DNA of 64,000 nt from Achromobacter ruhlandii (GTDB lineage: Bacteria > Pseudomonadota > Gammaproteobacteria > Burkholderiales > Burkholderiaceae_B): positions 62,001 to 126,000 of the forward strand of contig NZ_CADIJL010000008.1 of assembly GCF_902859695.1 (NCBI RefSeq), read 5' to 3'. Position numbers and translations under genes: made by a program. Each line of letters starts with the position of its first letter. The stretch's first letter is position 1. A model generated the notes under the pieces. That model worked only from the letters and a program-made list of their open reading frames with translations. It did no database searches and had not been told where the DNA came from. Below, in pieces: positions 1 to 64,000 of the stretch.

Positions 1-9
1 TGCCGCAGC

Positions 10-708
10 ATGACCATGCACCGCATCGCCCCCAGCATCCTCAGCGCCGACTTCGCATGCCTCGGTGACGAGGTACGCGGCGTGATCGCCGCCGGCGCCG
101 ACTGGATTCACTTCGACGTGATGGACAACCATTACGTCCCGAACCTGACGATCGGCCCGGCGGTGGCGAAGGCGCTCAAGCCCCACACGCGGCGCGCCGA
201 CGGCAGCTCGGCGCCGCTCGACGTGCATCTGATGGTGCACCCGGTGGACACATTGGCGGCCGAGTTCGCGCAAGCCGGGGCCGGCCTCATCAGCTTTCAT
301 CCCGATGCCAGCGTTCACGTGGACCGCACCCTGCAGCTGATTCGCGGGGCCGGCTGCAAGGCCGGTCTGGCCTTCAATCCGGCCGCGCCGCTGGACGTGC
401 TGGACTGGACCCTCGACAAGATCGACCTCGTGCTGATCATGAGCGTCAACCCCGGTTTCGGTGGGCAGAGCTTCATCGACAGCGCGCTGCGCAAGATCGA
501 GAGCGCCCGGCGTCTCATCGACCAGTCCGGCCGCGACATCCGTCTGCAAGTCGACGGCGGTATCAAGGTCGACAACATTCGTCGTGCCGCCGATGCGGGC
601 GCCGACACTTTCGTGGCCGGCAGCGCGATCTTCGGCCAATCGAACTACAAGGCCGTCATTGATGCCATGCGGGCCGAACTGGCCGCGCCGATGGGCAAGG
701 TGGCGTGA
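10..708 (+). CDS. rpe: Ribulose-phosphate 3-epimerase
   Basis: Interconverts ribulose 5-phosphate and xylulose 5-phosphate in the Calvin cycle (CbbE). The 232-residue TIM barrel has the family metal and catalytic residues: H35 and D37 in HFDVMD, H73 in DVHLMV, and D182 in the VDGG strand. The phosphate loop NPGFGG lies near residue 148. It is the first gene of a twelve-gene same-strand Calvin operon; the operon probably begins further left because the ATG lies only 9 bases into the window. Length and motifs are normal for the family. Confidence 0.96.
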
Positions 709-717
709 GGCTGGCGC

Positions 718-861
718 ATGGACGCACCCCTACCTCTGTATCGCATGCGCCAGACCAGCCGCCTGTTCGCCGATCGTAACCGCGTGCTCGACCAGGTCGC
801 GCTCACGACTCTTGCCGCGGCGGACATCCGGGTCAGCCGGGTGTTCGCCGCGGCAACCTGA
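718..861 (+). CDS. Possible small ORF, 47 residues, unrecognised
   Basis: An ATG-started 47-residue reading frame sits 9 bases after the rpe stop and ends 26 bases before fbp. The product (begins [10 protein letters not shown], ends RVFAAAT) resembles nothing I know. No good ribosome-binding site precedes it. It fills most of the only long gap in the first half of an otherwise overlapping operon, so it could be a small gene, a decayed gene end, or chance. I cannot distinguish these by eye. Confidence 0.25.
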
Positions 862-887
862 CACTGAACCACTCCGAGGACTCACCC

Positions 888-1985
888 ATGCCACTGTCCC
901 ACCGCCAGACCCTGACCCGCTACCTGATCGAGGAACGACGCCGCTTCCCCGAGGCCAGCGGCGAACTCAACGCGCTGATCCTCGATGTGGCGCTGGCATG
1001 CAAGGCGCTGGCCCGCGTCGTGTCGTTCGGAGAACTCGGCGACGCGTTGAGCGACGGTTCCGCTGCGCCCACGGGGGGGGGCATCAACGTGCAGGGCGAG
1101 GTGCAGAAACCGCTGGACGTGCAGTCCAACGAGATGTTCATCCGCATGAACGAGTGGAACGGGCAACTCGCCGGCATGGCCAGCGAGGAGATGGAGGAGC
1201 CGTACCTGATCCCGAGCTCTTACCCGCGCGGCAAGTACCTGCTCGTGTTCGACCCACTGGACGGCAGCAGCAACATCGACGTCAACGTCTCCATCGGCAG
1301 CATCTTCTCGATCCTGCGCGCCCCGGCCGACGTGGTAGCCAGCGGCCGCGACGTGACCGAAGCGGACTTCCTGCAGCCCGGCGCCGCACAGGTCGCCGCC
1401 GGCTACACGATCTACGGGCCGACGACGCAACTGGTGCTGACCGTCGGCAATGGTGTCGCGGCCTTCACGCTGGACCCCAACCTCGGCGAGTTCTTGCTGA
1501 CGCGCAGCGACATCCGCGTACCCGAGCAGACGCAGGAGTTCGCAATCAACTCCAGCAACAGCCGGTTCTGGGAGCCGCCGGTCAAGCGCTACGTCGACGA
1601 ATGCCTGGCCGGCAAGACCGGGCCGCGCGGCAAGGACTTCAACATGCGCTGGGTCGCGAGTATGGTCGCCGAGGCGCATCGCATCCTCATGCGCGGCGGT
1701 GTCTTCATGTACCCGCGCGACACCAAGGATCCCGCCAAGCCCGGTCGTCTGCGGCTGCTGTACGAGGCGAATCCGGTCGCAATGCTGATGGAACAGGCCG
1801 GCGGCCGCGCCAGCACGGGGCGCGAGCCGATCCTGGGGGTCAGTCCGACGGCGCTGCATCAGCGCATCGGCTTGATCTTCGGCAGCAAGGATGAAGTCGA
1901 GCGCATCGAGCGCTATCACCAGGAGCCGGCGTCCAACGAGGCCGCCGCACCGCTGTTCGCCGAACGCAGCCTGTTCCGCGACTGA
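888..1985 (+). CDS. cbbF: Fructose-1,6-bisphosphatase, class I
   Basis: Hydrolyses fructose 1,6-bisphosphate (and in autotrophs often sedoheptulose bisphosphate) in Calvin-cycle regeneration. The 365-residue protein carries the class I metal site [10 protein letters not shown] at residues 122-131 and an acidic EEMEE at 100-104. GAGGA precedes the ATG. Codons 63-66 contain an uninterrupted run of nine G (around 1073-1081) reading in frame as part of TGGGIN; such a tract is prone to sequencing error or slippage, but the frame here is intact. Confidence 0.96.
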
Positions 1986-2017
1986 ACCGAACACGAGCCA
2001 CCCTGCGAGTCCACACC

Positions 2018-2902
2018 ATGTCAGAAAAACACCCCATCATCGCCATCACGGGCAGTTCCGGCGCCGGCACGAGCTCGGTGACGCGCACGTTCCAGAACAT
2101 CTTCCGGCGCGAAGGCGTGAAGGCAGCCGTCATCGAAGGCGACAGCTTCCACCGCTACGACCGCAAGGGGATGAAGCTGCACCAGGCCGAGGCCGAGAAG
2201 TCCGGCAACACGCACTTCAGCCACTTCGGGCCGGAGAACAACTTGCTCGTCGAGCTCGAACAGCTGTTTCGCGGCTACAGCGAGAGCGGCACCGGCAAAC
2301 GCCGCAAGTACCTGCACGACGACGACGAGGCCGCGCCGTACAAGCAGGAGCCGGGCACCTTCACGCCGTGGGAGGACCTGCCTGCCGACACCGACATGTT
2401 GTTCTACGAGGGACTGCACGGGGCGGTGGTGACGCCTGAGGTGAACATCGCCAAGCACCCCGATTTGCTGGTCGGCGTGGTGCCGGTGATCAACCTCGAG
2501 TGGATCCAGAAGCTGTACCGCGACAAGAAGATGCGCGGTTACTCGACCGAGGCGGTGACCGACACCATCCTGCGCCGCATGCCCGACTACGTCCAGTACA
2601 TCGTGCCGCAGTTCTCGCAGACGCACGTCAACTTCCAGCGCGTACCGGTGGTGGATACGAGCAACCCCTTCATCGCGCGCGACGTCCCGAGTGCCGACGA
2701 GAGCCTGTGCGTAATCCGCTTCGCCAACCCCAAAGGCATCGACTTTCAGTACCTGCTGAACATGATCCACAACTCGTGGATGAGCCGCGCCAACACGCTC
2801 GTCGTGCCCGGCGGCAAGATGGAGCTGGCGATGCAGTTGATTTTTACGCCGTTTATCTGGCGCATGATGGAACGGCGCAAGCGCGCCCTGGGAGTCCTGT
2901 GA
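2018..2902 (+). CDS. cbbP: Phosphoribulokinase
   Basis: Phosphorylates ribulose 5-phosphate to ribulose 1,5-bisphosphate, the substrate of RuBisCO and one of two steps unique to the Calvin cycle. The 294-residue protein is the short bacterial (class I) form, with a P-loop GSSGAGTSS at residues 12-20. Its TGA shares one base with the tkt ATG (TGATG at 2900-2904), indicating translational coupling. Confidence 0.97.
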   Translation: MSEKHPIIAITGSSGAGTSSVTRTFQNIFRREGVKAAVIEGDSFHRYDRKGMKLHQAEAEKSGNTHFSHFGPENNLLVELEQLFRGYSESGTGKRRKYLHDDDEAAPYKQEPGTFTPWEDLPADTDMLFYEGLHGAVVTPEVNIAKHPDLLVGVVPVINLEWIQKLYRDKKMRGYSTEAVTDTILRRMPDYVQYIVPQFSQTHVNFQRVPVVDTSNPFIARDVPSADESLCVIRFANPKGIDFQYLLNMIHNSWMSRANTLVVPGGKMELAMQLIFTPFIWRMMERRKRALGVL

Positions 2903-4956
2903 TGGCCAGTACCTCTGCCGACCGCGTGCTGCGCCCCGAGAGCGGCCGCTACGACGAACTCGCCAACGCGCTGCGCGCCCTGGCCATGGACGCCGTTCAG
3001 CAGGCCAACTCCGGCCACCCCGGCGCGCCGATGGGCATGGCCGAGATGGCCGTCGCGCTGTGGAGCGGTCATCTGCGCCACAACCCGGGCAATCCCGGGT
3101 GGCCCGACCGCGACCGGTTCGTCTTGTCCAACGGGCATGCGTCGATGCTGCTGTATGCCTTGCTGCACCTGAGCGGCTACGACCTGCCGATCGAGGAACT
3201 GCAGCGCTTCCGGCAACTGCACAGCAAGACCCCGGGCCACCCCGAGGTGGGCCTCACGCCCGGCGTGGAAACCACGACCGGCCCATTGGGCCAAGGTTTG
3301 GCGAACGCGGTCGGCATGGCGCTGGCCGGGAAGTTGCTGGGCGACGAGTTCAACCGCCCGGGACATGTCGTGGTCGACCACCACACCTACGTCTTTCTCG
3401 GCGACGGCTGCCTGATGGAAGGCATCAGTCACGAGGTCTGCTCGCTGGCTGGCGTGTGGAGGCTCAACAAGCTGATCGCGCTGTACGACGACAACGGCAT
3501 CTCGATCGACGGTGCGGTCGATGCCTGGTTTCGCGACGACACCGCGGCACGCTTTCGAGCCTATGGCTGGAACGTGATCGGCCCGATCGACGGCCACGAC
3601 GTCGTGGCGATCGGGCGTTCCATCGCCGACGCGCGGCGCTCTGCCGACCGGCCCACGTTGATCGTGTGCCGCACCACCATCGGCCGCGGCTCCCCGGGAC
3701 GCGCCGGTACGGCCAAGGCCCATGGCGAACCGCTCGGGGCCGACGAGATTGCCGCCACGCGCGCCGCCATCGGGTGGCACGAGGCTCCGTTCGAAATTCC
3801 GGATACCGTGCGTGCGCGCTGGAGCGCGCGCGATCTGGGCGCCAGGCGCGAAGCTCAGTGGCGCTTGGGCTTCGAGGCCTACCGGAGCGAATATCCCGCA
3901 CTGGCCGCGGAGTTCGAGCGCCGGATTGCCGGCGACCTGCCGTCGTCGTTTCATGAAGCCGCGTCGGCAGCGATGATCGAACTCGGTCAGGCCACCACGC
4001 CGGTCGCCTCACGCAAGGCTTCGCAGCAAGCGCTGGCGATGCTGGCGCCCAAGATCCCCGAGATGCTCGGCGGCAGTGCCGACCTCACGGGCTCTAACCT
4101 GACCGACTTCCCGGGCTGCGGTGCCGTGCGGGCCGGCCAGCCCGGCGGGCGCCACGTCAACTACGGCGTGCGCGAGTTCGGCATGGCGGCGATCATGAAC
4201 GGGCTGGCGCTGCACGGCGGCTTCATTCCGTACGGCGGCACCTTCCTCACCTTCAGCGACTACAGCCGCAACGGAATTCGCATGGCCGCGCTGATGAAGC
4301 TGCGCGTGGTTCATGTCTTCACGCACGACTCGATCGGCCTGGGCGAGGACGGCCCGACGCACCAGGCCGTCGAGCATGCCGCGAGCTTGCGCCTGATCCC
4401 CAATCTCGATGTCTGGCGGCCCTGCGACGCCGCCGAGACCGCGGTGGCCTGGGCGTTCGCGCTCGAGCAACGCACGCGCCCCAGCGCGTTGCTGCTGTCG
4501 CGGCAGAACCTGCCGCCGCAGGCGCGCACTGCGGAGCAGGTCGCGCAGATCCGTCGCGGCGGTTACGTGCTCTCCGACCGACCCGAGCCGCAGGTGGTGC
4601 TGATCGGCACCGGCTCCGAGGTGTCCATCGCGATGGAGGCGCAGCGCCTTCTCGATGCGGTGGGCATCGCGGCGCGGGTGGTCTCGTTGCCCTGCAGCAC
4701 CCTCTTCGATCGGCAGGAGGCCGCCTGGCACGAGCAGGTGCTCGGCCGGGGAATCCCGCGCATCGGCGTCGAAGCGGGCGTCACCTCGTGGTGGGGCCAG
4801 TACCACTGCGTCGCCGCGCTGGGGGTGAACAGCTTCGGCGAGTCGGCGCCCGGCCCGCAGGTGTACGAGCACTTCGGCCTCGACGCCAAGGCGCTGGCCG
4901 ACCTGGCACGCGAAGTGCTGGCGCGCGAAGTGCGGTTCGTCCGGTCCAGGAGCTGA
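2902..4956 (+). CDS. cbbT: Transketolase
   Basis: Thiamine-diphosphate enzyme moving two-carbon units between sugar phosphates in Calvin-cycle regeneration. The 684-residue protein starts at the ATG overlapping the prk stop; a longer open frame upstream is only prk read out of frame. The ThDP/Mg motif begins with GDG at residues 167-169 and runs on to the DDNGISID stretch. The central pyrimidine domain (with DSIGLGEDGPTH) and C-terminal domain are complete. One base separates its stop from gph. Confidence 0.97.
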   Translation: MASTSADRVLRPESGRYDELANALRALAMDAVQQANSGHPGAPMGMAEMAVALWSGHLRHNPGNPGWPDRDRFVLSNGHASMLLYALLHLSGYDLPIEELQRFRQLHSKTPGHPEVGLTPGVETTTGPLGQGLANAVGMALAGKLLGDEFNRPGHVVVDHHTYVFLGDGCLMEGISHEVCSLAGVWRLNKLIALYDDNGISIDGAVDAWFRDDTAARFRAYGWNVIGPIDGHDVVAIGRSIADARRSADRPTLIVCRTTIGRGSPGRAGTAKAHGEPLGADEIAATRAAIGWHEAPFEIPDTVRARWSARDLGARREAQWRLGFEAYRSEYPALAAEFERRIAGDLPSSFHEAASAAMIELGQATTPVASRKASQQALAMLAPKIPEMLGGSADLTGSNLTDFPGCGAVRAGQPGGRHVNYGVREFGMAAIMNGLALHGGFIPYGGTFLTFSDYSRNGIRMAALMKLRVVHVFTHDSIGLGEDGPTHQAVEHAASLRLIPNLDVWRPCDAAETAVAWAFALEQRTRPSALLLSRQNLPPQARTAEQVAQIRRGGYVLSDRPEPQVVLIGTGSEVSIAMEAQRLLDAVGIAARVVSLPCSTLFDRQEAAWHEQVLGRGIPRIGVEAGVTSWWGQYHCVAALGVNSFGESAPGPQVYEHFGLDAKALADLAREVLAREVRFVRSRS

Positions 4957-4957
4957 C

Positions 4958-7876
<2,919 letters not shown>

Positions 7877-7880
<4 letters not shown>

Positions 7881-8695
7881 CCACCGGAACGGCGGCAAGA
7901 CCCAAGCTCGAGGCGCTGCTGTGGGACGTCGACGGCACCCTCGCCGAGACCGAGCGCGACGGGCATCGGGTCGCGTTCAACCTCGCCTTCGAGGCCTTCG
8001 GCCTGCCTTGGCGTTGGGACGATGCGCGCTATGGCGAGCTCCTGCGCGTGACCGGCGGGCGCGAGCGCCTGATGCACGACATGGACAGCCGGCCCGACGC
8101 ACCGCCCATGGCGAGCGAGCGCGATGCGCTGGCGCGCGCGCTGCACGCGAAGAAGAACACCTTGTATGCTGAACTGGTTGCCGATGCCGGCATTCCGCTG
8201 CGCGACGGCGTTCTGGAACTGATGCGCGAGTGCCGCGACCACGGCGTGCGCATGGCCGTCGCCACGACCACCAGCCGCTCCAACCTCGAAGCCTTGTTGC
8301 GCAAGCACATGGGCAACCGGTGGGCCGGCTGGTTCGGTGCCATCGTGTGCGGCGAGGACGTGGAGCGCAAGAAGCCCGATCCCGAGGTCTTCGTCAAGGC
8401 CTTGCGGGCGCTGGGCGTCGGCCCACACCAGGCCGTCGCCATCGAAGACTCGCCCGGCGGCGTGGCGGCGGCGCGCGCCGCCGATTGCCCGGTGGTGGTC
8501 ACCCGCAGCTTCTACTTCGCCAAGGCACCGATCGAGGGTGCCATCGCCGTCGGCCCCGGCCTGCACGCCCGCGAGGGCTGGCGCCCGGCGCTGGCCGCGC
8601 GGGTGAAGCCGCCGCAGTCGCAGGGGCAGCGCGTCGGCCTCGCCGACATCGCCGACTGGTTTGCGCAACGGGACACGATCTGCGACTACCCGTAG
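7877..8695 (+). CDS. cbbY: CbbY-type HAD sugar-phosphate phosphatase
   Basis: CbbY proteins dephosphorylate xylulose 1,5-bisphosphate, a misfire inhibitor of RuBisCO. The 272-residue protein has HAD motif [11 protein letters not shown], the cap signature [10 protein letters not shown], motif [14 protein letters not shown], motif [11 protein letters not shown] and motif [13 protein letters not shown]. It overlaps pgk by 4 bases. It is the only intact cbbY here: two further copies on the minus strand near 33.4-36 kb are broken. Confidence 0.92.
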
Positions 8696-8754
8696 CGCAC
8701 TTGCACTCGATCCAACGACTTCCTGAACCTTCAACGACTTACGGAGAATCCTTC

Positions 8755-9792
8755 ATGGCCCTCATCTCACTGCGCCAAGTGCTCGATCACGCTGCCGAAT
8801 ACGGCTACGGCGTGCCCGCTTTCAATGTCAACAACCTGGAGCAGGTCCACGCCATCATGGAGGCGGCGCAGGAAACGCAGTCGCCGGTGATTTTGCAAGC
8901 CTCGGCCGGCGCCCGCAAGTATGCCGGCGAGCCCTACCTGCGCCACCTGGTGCTGGCGGCCGTGGAGATGCACCCCGACATCCCGGTCGTGCTGCACCAG
9001 GACCACGGCGCCTCGCCGGCGGTGTGCCAGCAGTCGATCCGCTCGGGCTTCACCAGCGTGATGATGGACGGCTCCCTGCTCGAAGACGCGAAGACGCCCG
9101 CGAGCTACGATTACAACGTCGACGTCACGCGCAAGGTCTGCGAAATGGCGCATTCAATCGGCGTCTCGGTCGAGGGTGAACTGGGCTGCCTGGGTTCGCT
9201 CGAAACGGGCGAGGCCGGCGAAGAAGACGGCGTCGGTGCCGTGGGCAAGCTCACGCACGACATGATGCTCACCAATCCCGAGGAGGCCAAGGACTTCGTG
9301 GCCCGCACTGGCGTGGATGCGCTGGCTATTGCCATCGGCACCAGCCACGGCGCCTACAAGTTCACCCGCAAGCCCACCGGCGACATCCTGGCCATCGAGC
9401 GCATCGCGCAGATCCACGCCGCGGTGCCGAACACGCACCTGGTGATGCACGGCTCCTCCAGTGTGCCGCAGGAGTGGCTGGCGATCATCCGCAAGTACGG
9501 CGGCGACATCAAGGAGACCTACGGCGTGCCGGTCGAGGAGATCCAGCGCGGGATCAAGAGCGGTGTGCGCAAGATCAACATCGATACCGACATCCGCTTG
9601 GCGATGACCGCGGCGATGCGCCAAGTGTTCGCCGAGCAGCCCAGCGAGTTCGACCCGCGCAAGGCGCTGCAGGCGGCCACTAAGGCCGCGCGCAGCGTGG
9701 TCAAGGCGCGCTTCGAGGCCTTCGGCTGCGCCGGGCAGGGGGCCCGCATCAAGCCGCTCCCGCTCGAAGTCATGGCGGCACGCTACGCGTGA
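8755..9792 (+). CDS. cbbA: Fructose-bisphosphate aldolase, class II
   Basis: Zn-dependent aldolase making fructose or sedoheptulose 1,7-bisphosphate in the Calvin cycle. The start at 8755 follows an ACGGAGAA ribosome-binding site; a longer frame upstream is cbbY read out of frame. The 345-residue protein shows the class II histidines in [17 protein letters not shown] and VMHGSS, and the phosphate-binding [10 protein letters not shown]. Its stop overlaps the GTG start of pyk. A second, differently built class II aldolase lies at 33904-35142. Confidence 0.95.
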
Positions 9793-11225: not shown

Positions 11226-11260
11226 ATCCAGTCCCTCTTAACAGACCAAAGAGCCCCCCG

Positions 11261-21650: not shown

Positions 21651-21653
<3 letters not shown>

Positions 21654-51413: not shown

Positions 51414-51465
51414 GGACGAGCAGTCAGTCAATTCATGAATCGAGAGGGTTACCAAGGAGGTTGCT

Positions 51466-51573: not shown

Positions 51574-51581
51574 ACGCACCG

Positions 51582-51627: not shown

Positions 51628-51833
51628 CACTCTGGGGCGTGTTCACAGTAACCAGATGCGGACACATGCGAGATGCAAGAAAGCGTTGATTACCAATACA
51701 GTTGCAGCACACGGGATTCACCCCGGCAGATACGACTTGGCGTGACGCGCCCCCTCGGCCGCAGTAGGATCACGGCAGGCCACTCCCGGCGCTGGTGCCG
51801 GGCACGACGACACCAAGTCTGCACTCGGCACAG

Positions 51834-53570: not shown

Positions 53571-53809
53571 AACTGGAACATCAGTCCGATACCCCGCTGG
53601 TCGCCCAGATCGCCAGCGGACTTCGCCGCCTCGTTGAGGAGCGAAAGCCCACCCAGGGGATGAAGGTGCCGTCGATCCGGCAATTCGCCCGGCAACATGG
53701 AGTCAGCCCATCGACGGTCGCTAGGCTAGCCCTCTCAGGTTTAGTACGGCTCCCACACGAAGGCCAGATCCGCGCCTGGATTCTGCAAACTGCCTACCCA
53801 CGCCGATGA
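53564..53809 (+). pseudogene. Truncated GntR/MocR-type regulator
   Basis: Begins MLKLEHQSDTPLVAQIASGL with a GntR-type winged helix (GMKVPSIRQFARQHGVSPST) and then loses similarity after about residue 53 (53722), running out through the end of the conjugative-element gene on the other strand. No effector domain remains. The start overlaps the end of the P-loop gene, so the two were probably one operon. The break coincides with the element boundary. Confidence 0.7.
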
Positions 53810-54417
53810 AAACACCCCAACGCCCGCCCGGTCAGCACCCCAACCACCAGCGGCACGCACGGCAGCAGCAGCGGATGCAACGTCACCGGCAGCACGAAGC
53901 CGATGACCGTCGCGCAGAGGATCACGATCCCCAGGCTGGCGTACAGCGCGAACATTTCCGGATCGTGCTGAAGGAATTCCTTGGCCTTGATGAGCCGCGC
54001 AAATCCGCCGTCGACGACTGCAGCCAAGACGAATACCGCCAGCCAGGGCAGCCATTCGAGTAGGGTGGAGAGCCGATAGCTGGCGAGCAGGAGCAGCGCG
54101 TCGACGGCGCGGAAGTAGGCGTTGTTGAAGAGGCGCTGGTTGACCGAGGACATCTCCCGGGACACGGCGCCGGTCACGCCGGCTGGCGAAGGCGCATCCT
54201 TCGCGGCAGGAATCGGCGTGACCTGGGTTGTCGCATCTTGCATGCGCATCGCCCCATCCAGCATGCGGGTGGCGGGCTCGGCGCCCCAGTAGGCGGTGGC
54301 TGCCTCATGCTCGGCGCGTAGCTGTGCGAGGAAGCGCTCCGGGGGATGGGCCGACGGCACGTACAGCACCAGGACCAGCAGGACGAGCAACGACAACACG
54401 GCGACGGCGCGGATCAT
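53794..54417 (-). CDS. TIGR03747-family integrative-conjugative-element membrane protein
   Basis: A 207-residue membrane protein (MIRAVAVLSLLVLLVLVLYV start; later helices around LEWLPWLAVFVLAAVV and the C-terminal 60 residues). This family lies just after traD in SXT/TOL-type conjugative elements. The ATG at 54417 overlaps the traD stop. Normally it is followed by RAQPRD and further type IV secretion genes; here nothing of the kind follows. Confidence 0.85.
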   Translation of the reverse strand: MIRAVAVLSLLVLLVLVLYVPSAHPPERFLAQLRAEHEAATAYWGAEPATRMLDGAMRMQDATTQVTPIPAAKDAPSPAGVTGAVSREMSSVNQRLFNNAYFRAVDALLLLASYRLSTLLEWLPWLAVFVLAAVVDGGFARLIKAKEFLQHDPEMFALYASLGIVILCATVIGFVLPVTLHPLLLPCVPLVVGVLTGRALGCFHRRG

Positions 54418-56321
54418 GCGGCCGCCTTTCCCGGGGCGCGGCACGAATCCGCATCGGGATCGAGGATCGGAAACCGCCCCTTGATGATTCGGCCGCCCGA
54501 CACCGAGGCGAAGTACTGGAGGTTGGGCAGCTTGCCGAGCACATCCGCCGGCACCATCTCCTCGAAGCTCTCGGTGAGTTGGGTGGAATAGCTCGACGAG
54601 AAGTCGCCCAGGTGGGCATCCGATCCGTGGCTCAGGCCCACCCGCACCGTGTGGATCGCCGTCTTGCCGAAGGTCTCGACCACGAAGTCCTGGGTCGGCC
54701 GGTCCTTGGTGCGCAGCGCGATCAGGTTGTTGAGGTTGCCCAGCGCCATGCGCGCCGCGTCCTCGCTACCCAGCCGCCTGGCCAGGTCCGCCAGGGTCTG
54801 CATCGCGCAGGTGGTGAAGATGCCGCCCTCGGCGCCCTTGTTGAGGATCTCGATCAGCGGCTGGTTGATGACGTTCGAGACCTCGTCGACGAACAGCGCG
54901 ATGCGCCGGTAGCCGCCCAGGTTGTAGCGCATGCCGGCGCGTGCGGCCTGATCGGCCAGTGCCAAGGCGCCGATGGCTGAGGCGACGGACGGGTCGGGCA
55001 GCGAGTCCAGGCACATGTAAAGCACGTGGCCGGCGCGCTCGATTTTCTCGAAGTTCATAATGGGCCGCCTGTCGTCCGCATCGAAGGGATCGGGCGAGAG
55101 GCTGCGGCCCAGGTCGCCCGAAGTCAGCATCGACAGGATGGGCAGCAGGTTGGCGGTGATCTTCTGGTAGTGCTCGCGATTGTGGCGGAAGGTGCGCACC
55201 TGGGCGTCGATTACCCTGTTGCGCTGGTTCTGGGCGATGTGGTGCTCGTAGTAAGCGACGAAGGCCATCAGGTCGGCGCTGGCCGCCTCCGACGGCCGTT
55301 TAATGTTGCCGCGATGGGCATCGTGCAGCAGCTTCTTCATCTCGGGCAGTTCGCGCCAGCCGACGCCCAGGGTCTGATCGTAGTAGCGGCGCAGCGATCC
55401 TTCGAGGACCGGTTCGATGCCGCCCTCGATGTACTTGGTCAGTTTCATCAGGTTCGGCCGTTCCTCGATTTCGACCAGGCCCTGCACCACGACGTTGACG
55501 GCATCCCAGCCGAAGGCCGAGAAGGCGCCGGCCGTGTCCGGCGGCATGATGGACTGGATGCGCGAGGCGATCTCGGTGGGCTTCTGCCAGTTGAAGGTGA
55601 AATCCAGCCGTACCCCCCGCTCCGGGAAGGCCGGGTGGAATTCCATGAAGGTGTCCGGCTCGCGGTAGTCCGCGCAGGCACGCTCCACGACCCGCTTCAG
55701 GCGCCGGCTGTTCTTCGGATCGATGACGATCACCACGTCGCCGCGGCGGATCGCCTGGGTGATCAGATTGGCGAGTGCCACCCCCTTGCCGGACTGGGTG
55801 GTGCCCACCAGCAACGTGCCGCCCTCGAAGTTCTGCAGCGGCCGGTGCAAAGGACCTTCCTTCGGTTCGACGCCGTGGATATAGGGCAGACCGATCTCGG
55901 CGTCCGGCTGCGGCTTGCTGTCGTAGCCCAAAAGTTGCAGCAGGCGCGACGATACGGCGTACTCGCGGTAGTCGATCTTGGCGAGCTCATAGAGCCGCTG
56001 CGAATGCACCGGCTGCCATTCGAAGCCGAAGCCCAGGAACACCGAGGCCGGATCCTGGCACCATCGAGCCAGGTCGCCGGTGCCGACGACCTCGATGCCG
56101 CGCCCGCGCAGCGACGCCCGCAAGATCAGCGTGCGTAGCGCCTGGGTCACCCGCAGCACGCCCATCGCGAAGCAGACGAGTGCAAGCGGCAGGGCCAATT
56201 GCCGGGGCAGGGCGCCGGTCACGCCGACTCCAATGAAATAGAGCAGCGCCAGCCACCAGGCGATGCCGGCATAGACCTCATAGGCCCGGCGCCAGGGCAT
56301 CTCGTAGCGGCGTACCAGCAT
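54414..56321 (-). CDS. traD: Conjugative coupling protein TraD
   Basis: Type IV coupling ATPase bringing the relaxase-DNA complex to the secretion channel. The 635-residue protein has two N-terminal membrane helices (residues about 15-55), Walker A GTTQSGKGVALAN and Walker B IALFVDEVSN. It belongs to the SXT/TOL-type element subfamily. The start at 56321 abuts the relaxase stop. Confidence 0.92.
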   Translation of the reverse strand: MLVRRYEMPWRRAYEVYAGIAWWLALLYFIGVGVTGALPRQLALPLALVCFAMGVLRVTQALRTLILRASLRGRGIEVVGTGDLARWCQDPASVFLGFGFEWQPVHSQRLYELAKIDYREYAVSSRLLQLLGYDSKPQPDAEIGLPYIHGVEPKEGPLHRPLQNFEGGTLLVGTTQSGKGVALANLITQAIRRGDVVIVIDPKNSRRLKRVVERACADYREPDTFMEFHPAFPERGVRLDFTFNWQKPTEIASRIQSIMPPDTAGAFSAFGWDAVNVVVQGLVEIEERPNLMKLTKYIEGGIEPVLEGSLRRYYDQTLGVGWRELPEMKKLLHDAHRGNIKRPSEAASADLMAFVAYYEHHIAQNQRNRVIDAQVRTFRHNREHYQKITANLLPILSMLTSGDLGRSLSPDPFDADDRRPIMNFEKIERAGHVLYMCLDSLPDPSVASAIGALALADQAARAGMRYNLGGYRRIALFVDEVSNVINQPLIEILNKGAEGGIFTTCAMQTLADLARRLGSEDAARMALGNLNNLIALRTKDRPTQDFVVETFGKTAIHTVRVGLSHGSDAHLGDFSSSYSTQLTESFEEMVPADVLGKLPNLQYFASVSGGRIIKGRFPILDPDADSCRAPGKAAA

Positions 56322-56322: not shown

Positions 56323-58038
56323 TCAGCTTCCCTCCGCCGGTGGCGCGGCAAAGCCCGCCAGATCGAGTCCGCTCACGCAGCGCGGGTCGAGCACGATGCC
56401 GACGGTGGGGTTGCCGTTGAATTCACGCGACAGCGTCGGCGGGCCGTTGCGGTTTGGTTTCACCAGCAGGTTCGCCTCTGTGAGGGCACGCATGGCGAGG
56501 GGTGGCTGGACGCCGCGCCGCCCGAATTCCTCCAGCGGTACGAACACCCCCTGGGCGACGGTGCACACGGTGGGCGGACCCATGCCATCGTTGAGCGTGC
56601 GAACGGCCTCGGCCAGGGCGTCCCGCACCACCGGGTTCAGACGCATCGGGGCTTGCAGGGTGAATAACGCCGAAGGCGGTGTCGTCGCCGGTTCCGGCGA
56701 AGGTGATCCGGGTGTTTCCTCGACCGGCCCCACGCGGACGTCATTCTCGGCAGGCGGCTCGGGCGGCGGAATGAGCGACAACTGGGTGCCGCTCTTCACC
56801 GGTGCCGGCGGTGGCATTGATGGAGGCGTCTGCGGCGCAACTGGCGTAGACGCCCGCGCTGACTTGAATTCCAGCGCCTGGGGCAGGGCGACGGGGGGCG
56901 GATCGATTCCCGCGAGGAGAATGGCTGGGGCCGAGAGCTTGACGGCTTCCAGCGGGGCCTTGGCGCCGGGCGGCTGGATGGACCAGGTCGCGCGGCCCGC
57001 TGCTGCCGCTTCGAACACGCCAGCGGCCAGCAGCAGTTCCAGCATCGTCTCGGGCGCCTTGGGGATGCCGGCCAGTTGGTCGGCTTCGAGTAGTTGGTGG
57101 ACATCCTCGGCGGCGCCGGGCCAGACCAGGAACAGACCGTCCTGTCCGAACCACAGGCGCGACTTCTCGCGGTTGGGGACCCAGGCCGAGTTGCCGCTGG
57201 TGAGCCGCCGCAGGGCGTCGACCAGGTAGCGCTCCAGGTGCGAGCCGTATTGCGGCGAACCGTAGCGGTCGGCGCTGGCGACCAGGTTGCGGTCGATGAC
57301 CAGCGCCAGCGAGCGGCGGACGAGTTCGTCGAGGATGTTGTGGTCGCGATAGACCGGAATGCCGCCGATGCTGGCCAGCAGATGCGGCACGATGACCGCA
57401 TTGCCCTCGGAGAGGTCGGCCATCATCGCGGGCGGCACCACATGGGGCAGGGCGAACAGGCCCAGGCCGCGCGCCTCGACGGCTTGGGGCCGCCAGCGCA
57501 GGAAATAGCGCTCGCTGCCCCGGGTTGCCAGCCAGTCGGCCAGCGGCCGCAGGAAGGCCGGCCACGCCTCGCCGGCGGCATCGGTGACGATGATATGGCT
57601 CATCAGCCGGTGCAATTCGCAACACAGCCCAGCGATGAAGGTCGCATGGCGCCAGCGCGGCTCCAGTTGGCGGCGTGCCGAGATGCTCATTCGCCCTGAG
57701 AAGATATGCGCGTCGGTGCCTTGCAGGCTGAAGAACGCGGTCTCCAGGCCGAGGCGCAAGAGCCCGCCGGGCTTGCTGAAGTAGTTGTCGGCGGTCGCTG
57801 GCAGCAGATGTACGCAGGCGGCATAGCGGCGCACCAGCATTAGGACATCGCGCTCGAAACTGTCCCGGTCGATGCCGTAACAGAGCTTGATGCGTGCGAT
57901 TAGGTCCGCTTCGCCGGCCAGCAGATCCTCGACCGGCACGGCGGCGAACCCTGGGTCGGAGGCGGGGTATGAAGTGACAGGCGTTGGCGTGGCGGGCATG
58001 GCGGTACGGCGATTCCGACGAGAATGCGCAGTGGCCAT
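56323..58038 (-). CDS. MobH-family relaxase (TraI_2 type)
   Basis: Nicks the element at oriT to start transfer. The 571-residue protein has the MobH N-terminal HD-like domain (about residues 30-300; FAAVPVEDLLAGEADLI, RHATFIAGLCCELHRLM), a proline-rich linker (about 395-450) and a C-terminal TraI_2_C domain (NPVVRDALAEAVRTLND, VFVPLEEFGRRGVQP). An alternative start is ATG 57999. No oriT could be recognised. Confidence 0.88.
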   Translation of the reverse strand: MATAHSRRNRRTAMPATPTPVTSYPASDPGFAAVPVEDLLAGEADLIARIKLCYGIDRDSFERDVLMLVRRYAACVHLLPATADNYFSKPGGLLRLGLETAFFSLQGTDAHIFSGRMSISARRQLEPRWRHATFIAGLCCELHRLMSHIIVTDAAGEAWPAFLRPLADWLATRGSERYFLRWRPQAVEARGLGLFALPHVVPPAMMADLSEGNAVIVPHLLASIGGIPVYRDHNILDELVRRSLALVIDRNLVASADRYGSPQYGSHLERYLVDALRRLTSGNSAWVPNREKSRLWFGQDGLFLVWPGAAEDVHQLLEADQLAGIPKAPETMLELLLAAGVFEAAAAGRATWSIQPPGAKAPLEAVKLSAPAILLAGIDPPPVALPQALEFKSARASTPVAPQTPPSMPPPAPVKSGTQLSLIPPPEPPAENDVRVGPVEETPGSPSPEPATTPPSALFTLQAPMRLNPVVRDALAEAVRTLNDGMGPPTVCTVAQGVFVPLEEFGRRGVQPPLAMRALTEANLLVKPNRNGPPTLSREFNGNPTVGIVLDPRCVSGLDLAGFAAPPAEGS

Positions 58039-58078: not shown

Positions 58079-58717
58079 CTATTCCGACGGGCTATCGCCT
58101 TCGGCTTCAGGGCTTAACTTGTGAAACAGCGCCAGCATGCCCAGTTGGCGCTCGGTCATGTCGAGTGCAGGGCGAGCCGGGTAACACGCTTGGATGCGAT
58201 GGTCCAGGTGAAAGCGTTCCAGCAGCTTGCAGAAGGGGCAAGGTTCGCCAGGGTGCGCCACGGTGCCGACCGCGGCAATGAACTCGCAGCCACACCCGGG
58301 GCAGGTCAGCACGGACAGCGCCGGTGCGTTGGCCAGCCAGATGCCGTCGATATAGGAGACGAGGTTGAAGGCCCGGTCCAGGCTGATGCGGTAAGGCGGC
58401 AGCGTGGCGGCCTGGTAGGCGCGGTAGGCGAAGACCAGGGCTTCGCCGGCGGCGAGTCCCTGGTTGCGCAACTGGCGGTACCTGGCGCCAATGAGGCAGG
58501 CGTCGGTCCGCAGGATGAGGTTGGCGCCGTGGTACCACTCGGCCGAGTCGGGGGCGCGTCCGCGCGGGATGGTGTGGGCATCGGGGAAAAAGAGACTCTG
58601 CACCTGGCGCGGCGGGATGCCGGTGATGAGGTGGATCGTCTTCAGCCGTGCGCCGAGTGCCGCCAATTGCTTCGCCAGCTGCATGGCGCGCAGGTGCCGA
58701 TCGCCGCGGGTCGGCAT
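58079..58717 (-). CDS. FlhC-like transcriptional activator of the conjugative element
   Basis: A 212-residue FlhC/SetC-like protein. The C-terminal zinc site is visible as CPGCGCEF and CPFCKLL; the N-terminus RHLRAMQLAKQLAALG and GIPPRQVQSLFFP fit FlhC. In SXT-like elements such proteins pair with an FlhD-like partner to switch on transfer genes; the partner is the next gene, 12 bases upstream. Confidence 0.85.
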   Translation of the reverse strand: MPTRGDRHLRAMQLAKQLAALGARLKTIHLITGIPPRQVQSLFFPDAHTIPRGRAPDSAEWYHGANLILRTDACLIGARYRQLRNQGLAAGEALVFAYRAYQAATLPPYRISLDRAFNLVSYIDGIWLANAPALSVLTCPGCGCEFIAAVGTVAHPGEPCPFCKLLERFHLDHRIQACYPARPALDMTERQLGMLALFHKLSPEAEGDSPSE

Positions 58718-59495: not shown

Positions 59496-60560
59496 TCAGG
59501 CCGCTTCCGCCAAGCCTTTCCACTCATGGGCCGGCAAGTCGATCAGCCGGCCGCCCAGTGCTTCAAACTCCGTCGCGCGGTCGTAGTCCTCGACTTCCTG
59601 GCTGTAATGCGTCACCGCATTGACTAGCCCATAGCCCGACAACTGACCTTCGGTGATCAGATGGCGCAGCACACCGGCGCGCTCGCTGTCGTTCAGGGCG
59701 TAGCGCTGAGCCAGCACCTCGACCGTCTTCACCGGGTCGCCCACCAGCGGGATATTGAGCGTCTTCTGCATCTTCTGCGCCGTCTGGCGGAAGGTCGCTT
59801 CCGACACTGCCGCCTGCACTACGTCGCGCACCTTCAGGAAGAAGGCTTTGTCGTCGGCGCGCAAGGTGTCGTCCTGGTACACCTGGATGCGTTCATCCTC
59901 GGTGCCCAGCGCGCGCCCCACGTGAGTTTTGCGCAGCGAGCGGTCGGCAGCGATCAAGCCATTGCTGCACACCAGCCGGAACAGTAGCGGCTGTACCGAC
60001 AACGTGCCCTGGCCCACCTCCGAGTTCGAGATCACGACCCCGGCCTGCACCATATCGCCGGGCGCCATCTCGTACTTGAGGCGTGGCGTGATGCATTTCA
60101 GGTACATCTTCGTTTCGGTCAGTTCGACCGACTCGAAGCGTACCTCGGGCAGTTGCTGCAGGATGGGCAGCACACTCTCGGCCAGGTCGAAGTTGTCCAG
60201 GCGGCGGTAGCGATCCGACAACACGGCGCGCACCTGACCGTCCAGGGTGCGCAGCATGCGCCGCTCGTCCTCCCTCTGCAGCCAGGTGTTCACATTGCGG
60301 TCTAGCAGGGCCGGCTGGTCTTCGCGCATGCGCTCGAAATAGGCATACGGGATTTTCAGCTTGTCTGCCAGTTGGCGACGTGCCAGGGGTGTGACGCCGT
60401 AGTGCACCGGGCTGCCGCCTTCCTCGATGACGAGTCGCGTGCTCCCCAGATCGTCGGTGGCATGACGCACCAGCGTCGAGGGCACGACTAAGTCCTTCTT
60501 CGAATGCAGCTGGCGCTCCAGTTCCTGGGCCAGGCTGACGAGAGAACGTCCGTTTTTCAT
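59496..60560 (-). CDS. DUF932-domain protein of the conjugative element
   Basis: A 354-residue DUF932 protein (MKNGRSLVSLAQELERQL; FRLVCSNGLIAADRSLRKTH), a family frequent on plasmids, phages and conjugative elements with no settled biochemical role. AAGGAGA precedes the ATG at 60560; longer in-frame sequence upstream is not expected to be translated. The 276 bases between it and the primase show no gene. Confidence 0.85.
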   Translation of the reverse strand: MKNGRSLVSLAQELERQLHSKKDLVVPSTLVRHATDDLGSTRLVIEEGGSPVHYGVTPLARRQLADKLKIPYAYFERMREDQPALLDRNVNTWLQREDERRMLRTLDGQVRAVLSDRYRRLDNFDLAESVLPILQQLPEVRFESVELTETKMYLKCITPRLKYEMAPGDMVQAGVVISNSEVGQGTLSVQPLLFRLVCSNGLIAADRSLRKTHVGRALGTEDERIQVYQDDTLRADDKAFFLKVRDVVQAAVSEATFRQTAQKMQKTLNIPLVGDPVKTVEVLAQRYALNDSERAGVLRHLITEGQLSGYGLVNAVTHYSQEVEDYDRATEFEALGGRLIDLPAHEWKGLAEAA

Positions 60561-60836
60561 AGCAATCTCCTTGTCGGAAAAGAAAAGCGGAGACGGCATC
60601 GCCCCTCGGGGGAAGCGCATCCCCGCCAGGGTCGAGACGGACCGGCGGTTGCCGGTCCAGAAAGGGCGCGAGAAATCGCGCCGGAACTCCAGGGCTGTCT
60701 TCGCGGCGCCTTGGGGCGCCGCCTGGTGTGACAACTACCAGTGGGGCAAACATAGGGGCCTTTTCACCGTCACCGCCCGATGCAGTGCCGCTGAAAAGGC
60801 GGGTGCAGCCGACTGGCCGCACCCTTCGTCAAACAT

Positions 60837-61883
60837 TCATGCCGCACGCGGCGCCTGGGCTTCCAGGCGTTGGCGCCAGACATCGGCCCAATCGGTGCCG
60901 GCATGCTTGGGCAGGAACACCCGCACTTGCCGCCGACCGCTATTTTTCTCTTCACGCTTCAACCGGCGCGCCAGCGCGAAGGCGAAGGCCTGGCCGGCGA
61001 AGTCGCCGTCGGCGTCGTTGTCGGCGTAGATGCAGACCTTACGCACCGTGTCCGGCAGCCACAGCTTCTCCAGATTGCCGGCGTTGAGCCCGGCCCAGAC
61101 CGGTTTGCCGGTCGCCAGATGCAAGGCGATGCCGGTCTCGATACCTTCGCTGATCGCCAGTTCCTCGGTCGCATCGAACAAGCGGACCGCGGCGCCGTTG
61201 ATCCCGGCCGAGAGCACCTTTTTCGCATCGAGCGCCGCGAGCTTGCCGCCGTCCCGCAGATAGGTCCGGTGCAGCGTCACGGCGTGGCCGTCGGCACCCT
61301 GAATGCAGGCGAGCATCGCCGGATATTCAGCCACCTTGCGTGACTTGCCGGCGGCTTCCTTCTGGTAATAACCGAGGGCAGGGTGGAAGCGCAGCACCTT
61401 CGGGTACACCGGCAGGGCGAGACCCCGTCCGCTCAGGTAGCGATCGACTTCGTCGCCCACCGTTACCGCTTTTGCCTCGTTCCAGATCCGTTGGGCCAGC
61501 TTCTTCATGCGCTCGGCCGACGGCTCGCAACTGCGGGGCGGTGCCGTCACCGGCATCATCCCCAGACAGCGCTCGACGTCACGCAGCGCGGTGTTGAAGT
61601 CCAAGCCCATGATGGCTTGCAGCAACTTGAAGCCGCCACCCGGGCCGCATTGGCGGCAGTGGTAGTTCCCCTCGCCGAACTTGTCGGTGTACTGGAACCG
61701 ATCCGTGCCACCGCACAACGGGCAAGGCAGGTTGCGCCGCTTGAGGATGCGTTCATCCACGCCCAGGCTCGCCAGGATTTCCGTCCACCGGCCATGGGCA
61801 CGTTGCTTGACCGCTTCGATGCGGGCCGCGTACTCACGATCCTGCATGGCCAGCTCCCGCGTTGGCAGAACCCGCTTCGGCAA
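60837..61883 (-). CDS. Zinc-finger/TOPRIM primase-like protein
   Basis: A 348-residue protein with an N-terminal primase zinc finger (CPLCGG at residue 54 onward, YHCRQCG) and a TOPRIM domain (ISEGIETGIAL, YADNDADGDFAG). It resembles plasmid/ICE primases without a helicase domain. Probably primes element replication after transfer. Alternative start ATG 61847. It overlaps the ATPase gene by 50 bases if the longer start is used. Confidence 0.85.
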   Translation of the reverse strand: MPKRVLPTRELAMQDREYAARIEAVKQRAHGRWTEILASLGVDERILKRRNLPCPLCGGTDRFQYTDKFGEGNYHCRQCGPGGGFKLLQAIMGLDFNTALRDVERCLGMMPVTAPPRSCEPSAERMKKLAQRIWNEAKAVTVGDEVDRYLSGRGLALPVYPKVLRFHPALGYYQKEAAGKSRKVAEYPAMLACIQGADGHAVTLHRTYLRDGGKLAALDAKKVLSAGINGAAVRLFDATEELAISEGIETGIALHLATGKPVWAGLNAGNLEKLWLPDTVRKVCIYADNDADGDFAGQAFAFALARRLKREEKNSGRRQVRVFLPKHAGTDWADVWRQRLEAQAPRAA

Positions 61884-63462
61884 TCAGGGCCACCGAATGG
61901 CCGGGCGCAGCACCCACCCCCACGGTGACCTGGAAGGCCTTGCCGTGCAGCAGGGGATACCGGCCCAGCCGCAATTCCTGCAGCAGCGAGTCGAGCGTCT
62001 GCACCGGATCGACCGAACGCAGGCGACGGATGAGGTCCGCCAGCGCGTCGCGGTCCGCGTCCAGGTCCGAAGCGAGGAACTGGTCGTTCTCGTCGATGAA
62101 GGACGAGGCCTGCCGCACCGCTTCGCCGGAGGTCTCGCCGTCCGGGATGTACAAGACACCATGGTGGCAGACGCCCTTGTCGGTGACTTCGACGACCTTG
62201 CTGCCGGCGCGCAGGCGCACGGCCTCGCACAGGATCACGGTGGGCCACACCCAGCGCCCTTCCAACTGGACGCGGACCTGTTCGGACACCGCCTCGACCT
62301 GCACCGTTTCCTGGTCCAGGAAACGCACGTGGCGCCATGCCCAGTGCTCGGAGCTCAGGCCGATCCAGTCGAAGAGCAAATAGCCCTTGGCCCGGGCGAG
62401 CATCCAGCGTGCTGCGTTGTCGTCGCCCAACCAGTCGAGCGAAACCAGAGTCACTTTGCCGCTCTCGACGGCATGTCGAGTGGGTGCTACGGCAACTTGC
62501 CGGACATAGCTGCGGTCGTCATCCTGGATCGGATAGTCGACGATTTCGTCGAATAATTCGACCGGCAGCACATCAAGGTCGTTGAGCAGGTCCCAATGTC
62601 CCCAGGCGCGCATCGCCGCGTAATAGATTGCAACGAAGCGCTCGGGCGAAAGCTGGGTCTTGGCGACCTCTAGCGTCTGCCGCCAGCAGGCCTTCAACTC
62701 GGTATCGATCCGCTTTCTCTGTACGTCCTCGTCGATCAACTTGTCGCGATCCGGCAGGCGCGCCACGAACTGGCGCGAATCCAGGTGCACGATATTGACC
62801 TCGTCGAACGGGCAATAGTTGGGCTTCATGACGCAGAAGCCCTGCAGGAAGACCAGGGTGTTGTAGCTGAACTTGCCGTCCCGCGTGCCGGTGAGGTGGA
62901 CCGTGCCCATCGGGCTGGCCATCGTCGCCAGGTTCGCGGCGGCAAAGCGCCGCAACAGCGGCTTGCCGTTGAACAGCACCTCCACCGGAAAACCCAGGCA
63001 CAAGCTCTCGATGCGATTGCCCAGGTCGGGCAGGTCAACGCCGTGCAACTCGATCCGGGTACCGGCAACGGCTTCGGCGATGGGCTCCACCTCGATGGAC
63101 GCCTTGGCCAGCGCCGCCGCGGTGTCGATATCGACACGCTGATGCTTTGAGGCGACGATGCAGCGCGTGGCGGCATACAGGCACTTCGAGAAGCCCACCC
63201 CGAAAGGGCGCTCCTCGGCACTGGTGGCCGCATCCCAACCCGACTCGTGGAAGCTCAGGAGCTTTTGGAAGTCGTCGAGGCCGCGGCCATCGTCTTCCAC
63301 CCGCAGTACCTGCGTGGTGGCGTCGTATTGAATTTCGATGCGCATCGCGCCGGCACGGCGGGCGTTCTGCAACAGCTCGGAGACGAGCGTAAAGCGGTCG
63401 GTAAAGGCATAGCGCTGGTTGCGCAGCGCGCCTTCCTCGTTGATTTGAACCTGTATCTGCAT
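61834..63462 (-). CDS. GHKL-type ATP-binding protein of the conjugative element
   Basis: A 542-residue protein with an HSP90/MutL-like ATPase fold at the N-terminus: N-box ELLQNARRAGA, DDGRGLDDF and FGVGFSKCL. The remainder is unfamiliar. GGAG lies 6 bases before the ATG at 63462. Such genes recur in proteobacterial conjugative elements next to the primase; the function is unknown to me. Confidence 0.82.
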   Translation of the reverse strand: MQIQVQINEEGALRNQRYAFTDRFTLVSELLQNARRAGAMRIEIQYDATTQVLRVEDDGRGLDDFQKLLSFHESGWDAATSAEERPFGVGFSKCLYAATRCIVASKHQRVDIDTAAALAKASIEVEPIAEAVAGTRIELHGVDLPDLGNRIESLCLGFPVEVLFNGKPLLRRFAAANLATMASPMGTVHLTGTRDGKFSYNTLVFLQGFCVMKPNYCPFDEVNIVHLDSRQFVARLPDRDKLIDEDVQRKRIDTELKACWRQTLEVAKTQLSPERFVAIYYAAMRAWGHWDLLNDLDVLPVELFDEIVDYPIQDDDRSYVRQVAVAPTRHAVESGKVTLVSLDWLGDDNAARWMLARAKGYLLFDWIGLSSEHWAWRHVRFLDQETVQVEAVSEQVRVQLEGRWVWPTVILCEAVRLRAGSKVVEVTDKGVCHHGVLYIPDGETSGEAVRQASSFIDENDQFLASDLDADRDALADLIRRLRSVDPVQTLDSLLQELRLGRYPLLHGKAFQVTVGVGAAPGHSVALIAEAGSANAGAGHAGS

Positions 63463-63534
63463 GATGTGCTCCATGAGTGCAGGCGGAACCCGGCCCCGGC
63501 GGGACGGGCCCGCCAAGGGGGAAAGAACGATCGG

Positions 63535-63864
63535 TCAGCCGAGACGGCGGATCGGCGGGGTAAACAACTGGCCGGCGGCCAGGGCCTCCATCAGGCTGTG
63601 TCCGAGGAACTCCCAGGGCAGCAGGTGCTGGGTGGAATGAAGCCCACTGAGGACCCGGCCCTCGGCATCGAGCCGTTCGACTTTCAGGCCGATCGGATGC
63701 CAATGCACCCGGTAGGCCAGCCAGTCGGCGCCGGCGATGACGAAGGTGCGGCCGGCCCGACCGGTGAGGATTTCGCTTTCCTTGACCAGGAACTCGATGT
63801 CTTCCGGCGCCTGAACGGTCAGCAGGGAAGGGGCGTCGTGCGCGATGCGCGTTTGGGTATGCAT
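63535..63864 (-). CDS. Small conserved conjugative-element protein, unknown
   Basis: A 109-residue soluble protein (MHTQTRIAHDAPSLLTVQAP; ADWLAYRVHWHPIGLKVERL). No family function known to me. It is in line with the ATPase and primase genes and has a GAGGCCG-like site before the ATG. Context supports it as a real element gene. Confidence 0.7.
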   Translation of the reverse strand: MHTQTRIAHDAPSLLTVQAPEDIEFLVKESEILTGRAGRTFVIAGADWLAYRVHWHPIGLKVERLDAEGRVLSGLHSTQHLLPWEFLGHSLMEALAAGQLFTPPIRRLG

Positions 63865-63874
63865 GGCGGCCTCC

Positions 63875-64000
63875 TCACAGCACGCGCGACGCGCAGGGCT
63901 GCCCGTCTTCGGGCGCGGCTGCGTCCGTGCGACGGGTAGATGGATCGAAGGGCAGATCGTTGATCTGCGCCAGGGCTTCGCGGTCGGCTGGCGTCGTCAT
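63875..64000 (-). CDS. Small ORF at the window edge, 41 residues
   Basis: Minus-strand frame beginning with ATG at the last base of the window (MTTPADREALAQINDLPFDP) and ending CASRVL plus stop 10 bases before the next gene. It is in line with the element genes. It may start further right outside the window, so the N-terminus is uncertain. Confidence 0.5.
   Translation of the reverse strand: MTTPADREALAQINDLPFDPSTRRTDAAAPEDGQPCASRVL

Follow-up and report, generated by a model that had tools for sequence, protein, structure and literature searches.

A 64,000-nucleotide stretch of the Achromobacter ruhlandii genome (the window) carries Calvin-cycle, RuBisCO and hydrogenase genes next to conjugation genes. 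This raises the question of whether the genes for life on H2 and CO2 are chromosomal heritage or the cargo of a transferable element and, if they are cargo, whether they travel as a unit. A preliminary description of this DNA had favoured cargo. The window is C8:62001-126000, where C8 is contig NZ_CADIJL010000008.1 of a 6.86 Mb assembly in 86 contigs; a window coordinate equals the C8 coordinate minus 62,000. The azurin of this genome agrees at 124 of 125 positions with PDB chain 6l1v, which, like 1rkr, is azurin I of Achromobacter xylosoxidans, so that Achromobacter is the probable genus; among the named plasmid-collection records listed, none exceeds 91.4% identity to the 16S gene. C8 was fetched entire (226,338 bases), its genes were called with a custom script, and gene content was checked by Pfam and NCBIfam profile searches, using the curated cutoffs of NCBIfam. 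The comparisons drew on 43 genomes of the genus, the host genome included, and on 47 MobH-family loci among the matches listed. With high confidence, we place in the predicted F-type, MobH backbone of C8 a 67.0 kb insert that occupies a variable slot between a DUF4400 gene and the traL block.

The insert and its slot in the conjugative backbone

The conjugative side of the window and the insert border contain the following features (window coordinates).

1..53790, no strand: in-window part of the autotrophy insert (borders of related elements; colinear insert-free backbone in NZ_CP136337)
53789..53798, no strand: right insert border at the DUF4400 stop codon (ends of blastn matches)
53794..54417, minus: DUF4400 gene, placed where SXT-like elements have traJ (PF14348)
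54414..56321, minus: traD coupling protein, SXT type (TIGR03743, 688 bits, cutoff 366)
56323..57939, minus: mobH relaxase (NF041494, 335 bits, cutoff 200; PF07514)
58079..58717, minus: FlhC-like transcription activator (PF05280, 30.9, cutoff 27)
59496..63474, minus: conserved backbone genes for a DUF932 protein, a toprim/primase-like protein and a HATPase-domain protein

Profile matches and identity to the megaplasmid pHG1 (NC_005241, 49 kb region compared) confirm the juxtaposition described earlier: Calvin-cycle, RuBisCO, Hyp, nickel-uptake and transhydrogenase genes and two hydrogenases lie beside TraD and MobH. The gene after TraD, previously labelled TIGR03747, gave no NCBIfam match at E<=0.01 and is a DUF4400 gene; the backbone does break off behind it, at its stop codon near window position 53,790. 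The proposed FlhDC-like activators were recovered in part, as an FlhC-like protein, and the small gene beside it matched no Pfam or NCBIfam model.

Extension of the contig bore out the cargo hypothesis, since type IV secretion system (T4SS) genes, an integrase and flanking attachment (att) repeats were all found, as predicted. The F-type tra genes lie upstream of the window, on the far side of the cargo from DUF4400-TraD-MobH. At C8:27,413-46,536, TraG, TraH, TraF, TraN, TrbC, TraU, TraW and TraC were matched to plasmid NZ_CP136337, as were TraV, DsbC, TraB, TraK, TraE and TraL in the continuation of the block, all in the order and orientation of that plasmid; OmpA-like and transglycosylase genes adjoin it. 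Relatives free of the cargo exist as well, one of them in the same genus (genome G020, which has a related backbone with approximately 1.8 kb in the slot). In NZ_CP136337, 349 bp separate the left-of-slot match from the DUF4400 match, at the place where C8 has its insert, and in Janthinobacterium lividum NZ_CP139977 the slot holds hemolysin-secretion and filamentous-hemagglutinin genes; the slot is therefore variable.

The slot borders were mapped by blastn of the MobH-family loci against C8. The insert was delimited to C8:48,763-115,790 (67,028 bp) because the backbone matches of related elements end there. It comprises window 1-53,790 and approximately 13.2 kb upstream of the window; thus, the 54 kb of cargo proposed earlier holds for the in-window block and falls short of the whole. 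On the right side, C8 is matched by 40 of the 47 loci; 18 of these matches end at C8:115,789-115,798, at the DUF4400 stop codon, two end at C8:115,801-115,805, and 20 end at 115,817 or later. Among the 40 loci, no backbone match continues past 115,789 into the insert, excepting the separate cargo pieces of Dechloromonas sp. CZR5, which are discussed below. Fewer elements define the left border: 15 loci match, five ending at 48,753-48,762, two at 48,661-48,665, seven at 48,559-48,561 and one at 47,873. Border sequences were compared in eight elements on the right and six on the left, besides C8. Between C8:48,001-50,300 and C8:113,401-115,900, there is no exact direct or inverted repeat of 14 bases.

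Slot width was measured for each locus by protein matches (for locus L081, to the transglycosylase gene). Both sides are visible in 15 of the 47 loci, 0.9-6.7 kb apart; the other 32 include 20 without the left side within at least 7 kb, five with too little flank and seven without a DUF4400 match. Slots were gene-called in 11 loci, and 10 open reading frames (ORFs) from seven of them were profiled. Six had Pfam matches (a dynamin-like GTPase, a SNF2-type helicase, two efflux components, a multicopper oxidase and an amidase), and four had no match in Pfam. In C8, the cargo begins on the left (C8:48,732-49,953) with a partial transposase, identified by eye, and an AAA ATPase gene; this is possibly the remnant of an inserting transposon.

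Integration at tRNA-Pro and the ends of the element

The window very probably lies inside a putative integrative and conjugative element (ICE) of approximately 200.6 kb, located in the chromosome at the 3' end of tRNA-Pro(GGG). This tRNA gene occupies C8:21,391-21,467, and its last 45 bases recur as a direct repeat at C8:222,008-222,052 (44/45 identical). An integrase with Arm-DNA-bind_3 and Phage_integrase domains is encoded at C8:220,388-221,821, approximately 190 bp from the distal repeat. Several features that define an ICE are present by sequence: integration in a specific site between att direct repeats, a site-specific tyrosine integrase, and genes for a relaxase (MobH), a coupling protein (TraD) and a T4SS. 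At the one mismatched position, all 29 congener tRNAs read have T; in C8, the tRNA copy (attL) has C and the distal copy (attR) has T. This pattern is expected if the native 3' end was displaced by one that came with the element. In 4 of the 13 congeners compared (16 minus-strand loci were left out), tRNA-Pro is directly followed by the 23 bases that stand after attR in C8, and in a fifth by the same bases with one added.

Several observations fit this reading less well. In 8 of the 13 congeners, a different short hairpin-like sequence follows tRNA-Pro; the integrase gene adjoins the distal repeat rather than the intact tRNA; and an IS66-like element, identified by eye, lies near the left end. 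The position of the integrase and the IS66-like element would also suit a defective relic, unable to excise or transfer. We consider such a relic unlikely, given that long ORFs encode the integrase, MobH, TraD and the F-type Tra proteins and match a relative in order. If the ICE is active, the integrase would excise it through recombination between the att repeats, and the DNA, nicked by MobH, would be passed to a new cell by TraD with the F-type T4SS, as homology suggests; the element would then enter the tRNA-Pro gene of the recipient and supply hydrogenases, RuBisCO and carbon-cycle enzymes.

A replicating plasmid was rejected as the location, since chromosomal genes (ribosomal-protein genes and pheST, named from a reading of ORF starts) lead up to tRNA-Pro and the element on the same contig; the host pheST stretch matches one place in each of three Betaproteobacteria. 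An autonomous plasmid of the NZ_CP136337 kind was also rejected: among the best matches per protein at E<=1e-5, no C8 protein hit trfA, parA, parB or dnaB of that plasmid, the one replicon covered by this comparison. A further att-like copy, at C41:44,810-44,851, corresponds to a tRNA-Pro other than this one and was attributed to a separate element.

Immediately to the right of attR, at C8:222,101-223,287, there is a phage-type integrase gene (by eye) broken across two frames. This tRNA-Pro looks like a common insertion site because the tRNA end is repeated 19-48 kb downstream in congeners G009, G038 and G042. The element also contains metal-efflux genes (RND, cation efflux, P-type ATPases) at about C8:133-171 kb, and two adjacent related genes at C8:174,294-179,279 both match one DNA-repair-type gene of NZ_CP136337 (45%).

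The position of the repeats bears on the possibility that the lineage inherited its hox-hyp and RuBisCO genes on the chromosome, and that a conjugative element inserted beside or around them. The type strains of A. ruhlandii and A. veterisilvae are named as hydrogen oxidisers in one report (PMC10497747), and the Achromobacter-like genome G039 has its own RuBisCO, as heritage would suggest. However, the att repeats enclose the block as a whole, and the insert borders coincide with the backbone borders of other elements. Moreover, HoxH was found in 1 of the 43 genus genomes (the host) and CbbL in two (the host and G039, 59% identical); MobH was likewise found in two (the host and G020, 62%). The block was not seen in syntenic chromosomal context in any of these 43 genomes. 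Chromosomal heritage is thus already contradicted, and we regard it as extremely improbable.

The cargo and its counterpart in Dechloromonas

Within the window, the cargo comprises the following genes.

10..12738, plus: Calvin-cycle operon; first part rpe, fbp, prk, tkt, HAD phosphatase gene, gap; second part pgk, HAD gene, fba, pyk, tpiA, rpiA (Pfam/NCBIfam)
12864..17489, plus: hoxFUYH, NAD-linked NiFe hydrogenase (88.6% DNA identity to the hoxF, hoxU, hoxH region of pHG1)
17473..18495, plus: maturation protease (hoxW-like; TIGR00072 above cutoff) and cyclic-nucleotide-binding protein (hoxI-like), in pHG1 order
18832..21653, plus: transhydrogenase genes pntA-like (PF05222/PF01262), small middle ORF, pntB (PF02233)
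21715..22551, plus: NicO-family nickel transporter (PF03824)
22907..24229, plus: IS110-type transposase within the cargo (PF01548, PF02371)
24921..31150, plus: hypA, hypB, hypF, hypC, hypD, hypE (profiles; hypA, hypB, hypF also by pHG1 identity)
31249..32988, plus: hoxX-like maturation protein (formyl transferase and enoyl-CoA hydratase domains)
33003..33914, plus: truncated hoxA-like regulator, receiver domain only (profile and CZR5 comparison)
33904..35142, minus: second class II aldolase gene (TIGR00167 just above cutoff)
36748..41926, minus: cbbO-type (PF00092, VWA) and cbbQ-type (GvpN-like, below cutoff) genes, cbbS (PF00101), cbbL (NF003252 above cutoff)
42051..42932, plus: LysR-type regulator, cbbR-like, divergent from cbbL (Pfam on 42129-42932)
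45608..51413, plus: second NiFe hydrogenase, small and large subunits, accessory genes and maturation protease (resembling the second enzyme of this type on pHG1)
51834..53570, plus: large ORF (zeta-toxin-like P-loop match just below cutoff; 57% identical homologue in the CZR5 cargo)

As predicted from these genes, the cargo would be an almost complete kit for an H2-driven Calvin cycle. The form I RuBisCO and CbbQ names were taken from annotated matches. The hydrogenase subunits have NCBIfam matches below the curated cutoffs only, and their names rest on DNA identity to annotated pHG1 genes (88.6% for hoxFUYH, 77.4% for the second hydrogenase). Although its subunit models fall below the cutoffs, the first enzyme has all four subunits and maturation genes and is predicted to belong to the HoxFUYH class, which we take to be group 3d; the names hoxW and hoxI, and the labels hhy and group 1h for the second hydrogenase, are likewise our assumptions. 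From pathway knowledge, H2 oxidation by HoxFUYH is likely to yield NADH, part of which the transhydrogenase would turn into NADPH, and the second hydrogenase, whose class has a respiratory role, is likely to feed respiration. The sedoheptulose step of the Calvin cycle is presumably carried out by the cargo FBPase. A weak point of this scheme is the truncated hoxA gene of C8: its similarity to the 481-aa CZR5 protein ends at about 33,434-33,440, at the start of the following module, and the host assembly contains no other hoxA match above 45% identity.

A comparison that bears on movement of this cargo comes from Dechloromonas sp. CZR5, of the order Rhodocyclales. Twenty-nine relatives' genomes, named via 29 of the 47 MobH loci, were searched for HoxH (E<=1e-30); 18 had a match, and CZR5 was the only one above 54% identity (91%). 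Its 54,465-bp contig carries hoxFUYH-hyp-hoxX-hoxA, hhy and then DUF4400-TraD-MobH and more backbone, in the order and orientation of C8. The main backbone pieces have 86.6-92.2% DNA identity to C8, and those of the hydrogenase cargo 87.2-92.1%; the identity falls to 71-78% in smaller pieces of the cargo, which resemble rpe, pntB and the ORF at 51,834. The pheST genes of the two hosts are 66% identical. A separate 19,933-bp contig of CZR5 carries cbbLSQO with 87-94% identity, CbbL being 98% identical as a protein. A second MobH locus of CZR5 (L075) has a slot of 0.9 kb. Since a related element with many of the same genes occupies the same slot in a distant bacterium, the H2/CO2 lifestyle appears to be movable between bacteria.

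Whether it moves as one piece is harder to decide, and a number of findings speak against a single transferred unit. The RuBisCO genes of CZR5 lie on a contig other than that of its element; prk, tkt, gap and fba on this RuBisCO contig are 70-77% similar to those of C8, the values being 73% for cbbR and 38-46% for the pnt proteins of CZR5. The cargo order and several modules differ: pnt-like genes and the homologue of the ORF at window 51,834-53,570 lie between hoxA and hhy in CZR5. In addition, CZR5 hoxF, hoxU, hoxY, hoxH, hypB and hypF are nearer to pHG1 (92.7-95.6%) than to C8 (86.7-91.7%), and these modules have therefore been exchanged separately.

These data could also be read as assembly in place: the 67 kb block would have been built inside the element after its entry into the chromosome, by insertion sequence (IS) and transposon insertions, and would never have travelled whole. 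Several features are consistent with this: the AAA ATPase and partial transposase on the left of the cargo, the IS110, the apparent IS remnants (by eye) between 43 and 45 kb of the window, the truncation of hoxA at a module junction and the differing closest relatives of the modules. Conversely, hox-hyp-hoxX-hoxA and then hhy keep their order and orientation in CZR5, next to the same DUF4400 gene, and hhyS and hhyL are 91.8-93.3% identical between the two elements, compared to 77-79% to pHG1. We therefore judge assembly in place to be a minority possibility. The earlier proposal that lithoautotrophy could spread as a unit stands in one respect, in that the slot of a related element from a second genus also holds hydrogenase genes, and is weakened by the differences in order and modules and by the module that is nearer to pHG1. 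The transfer of functional autotrophy as a unit thus seems about evenly balanced. The wider proposal that a betaproteobacterial MobH/F-type ICE lineage is a vehicle for complete H2 lithoautotrophy, with slot modules passing among Burkholderiales and Rhodocyclales and exchanging with pHG1-like megaplasmids, may equally well be right or wrong.

Other observations concern the cargo and its surroundings. Beside cbbO, at window 35,804-36,337, there are two short minus-strand ORFs, one of them HAD-like by eye, which may be a broken phosphatase gene. Window 42,980-45,500, between the RuBisCO and hhy genes, holds apparent fragments of several insertion sequences (by eye), and three ORFs there had no Pfam match at E<=0.01. 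Upstream of the window, at C8:53.1-61.7 kb, lies a second, divergent Calvin set with a LysR regulator, FBPase, phosphoribulokinase and transketolase/PEPC (PEP carboxylase). In this set, a single minus-strand open frame of 1668 aa (C8:53,156-58,159) encodes a transketolase in residues 26-674 and a PEP carboxylase in residues 733-1668, which reflects a gene fusion or else an artefact of assembly. In the CZR5 cargo, hypE and hoxX are separated by a gene that, by eye, is enolase-like (L133:14046-15341).

Relation to known systems

According to two reports, the genes of C. metallidurans CH34 for growth on CO2 and H2 are located on the Tn4371-family islands CMGI-2 and CMGI-3, and the presence of these islands across strains agrees with the phenotype (PMC2864759, PMC3384475). 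Like the element described here, they are chromosomal ICEs with hox, hyp and cbb genes; unlike it, they are described there as having a vir-like T4SS (PMC2864759), functions split over two islands, and IS1071-flanked cassettes in CMGI-3. The present element has MobH and F-type tra genes, a tRNA-Pro site, one insert in one slot, and, besides Hox, a hydrogenase of the hhy type known from pHG1. Membership in the Tn4371 family was rejected, the transfer genes matching F-type TraG/H/F/N/U/W/C/V/B/K/E/L and not the RP4/Ti-like (vir-type) module.

The pHG1 megaplasmid of Cupriavidus necator H16 shares with C8 the order of hoxF, U, Y, H, the protease gene, the cyclic-nucleotide-binding gene and hypA, B, F. 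It differs in being an unintegrated replicon of 452 kb, typed as conjugative with MOBH, MOBP and MPF_T, with its modules arranged differently. In A. xylosoxidans H1_3_1, PMC10497747 describes an IS256-flanked hox-hyp-cbb cluster near an integrase ORF, thought to be laterally acquired; it resembles the present cargo as a set of Achromobacter hydrogen autotrophy genes and differs in its IS256 flanks and its hydrogenase groups (1d and 2b).

In position, the slot corresponds to hotspot 1 of SXT/R391 ICEs, which, according to Wozniak et al. (PMC2791158), lies between traJ and traL and has shared borders, the variable regions measuring 676-29,210 bp. The TraD subfamily, the F-type tra block and variable traJ-traL DNA with sharp borders are likenesses to these elements (PMC2791158, PMC5122569). 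The same sources give them a prfC site, a shared IntSXT and variable regions of 676-29,210 bp, compared to 67 kb here. Membership in SXT/R391 was rejected on the basis of the site, which is tRNA-Pro and not prfC, the integrase not having been compared with IntSXT itself; our comparison covered the TraD subfamily and the position of the traJ-traL slot rather than the 52 syntenic core genes. FlhC-like activators are also found in SXT (SetC).

Among the papers listed in searches of open-licence PMC literature, none has this element as its subject by title and abstract start. Within these searches, three things appear to be new: the vehicle, a MobH/F-type ICE in tRNA-Pro; the placing of all 67 kb as one insert in a traJ-traL-like slot; and the relative in Dechloromonas that also bears hydrogenase genes. 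As ICE-borne H2/CO2 autotrophy is known from Tn4371-family islands, this element represents a variant carried by another family of ICEs. Among Betaproteobacteria, the ability to grow on H2 and CO2 has a patchy distribution. One insert with Calvin enzymes, two hydrogenases, their maturation, nickel uptake and a transhydrogenase, together with its distant relative, would provide a concrete vehicle for this patchy autotrophy. The element also extends ICE-borne autotrophy beyond the Tn4371 family to another family of ICEs and shows that as much as 67 kb can be accommodated in a traJ-traL-like slot; if the wider proposal is true, one transfer event could make a heterotroph a hydrogen-oxidising autotroph.

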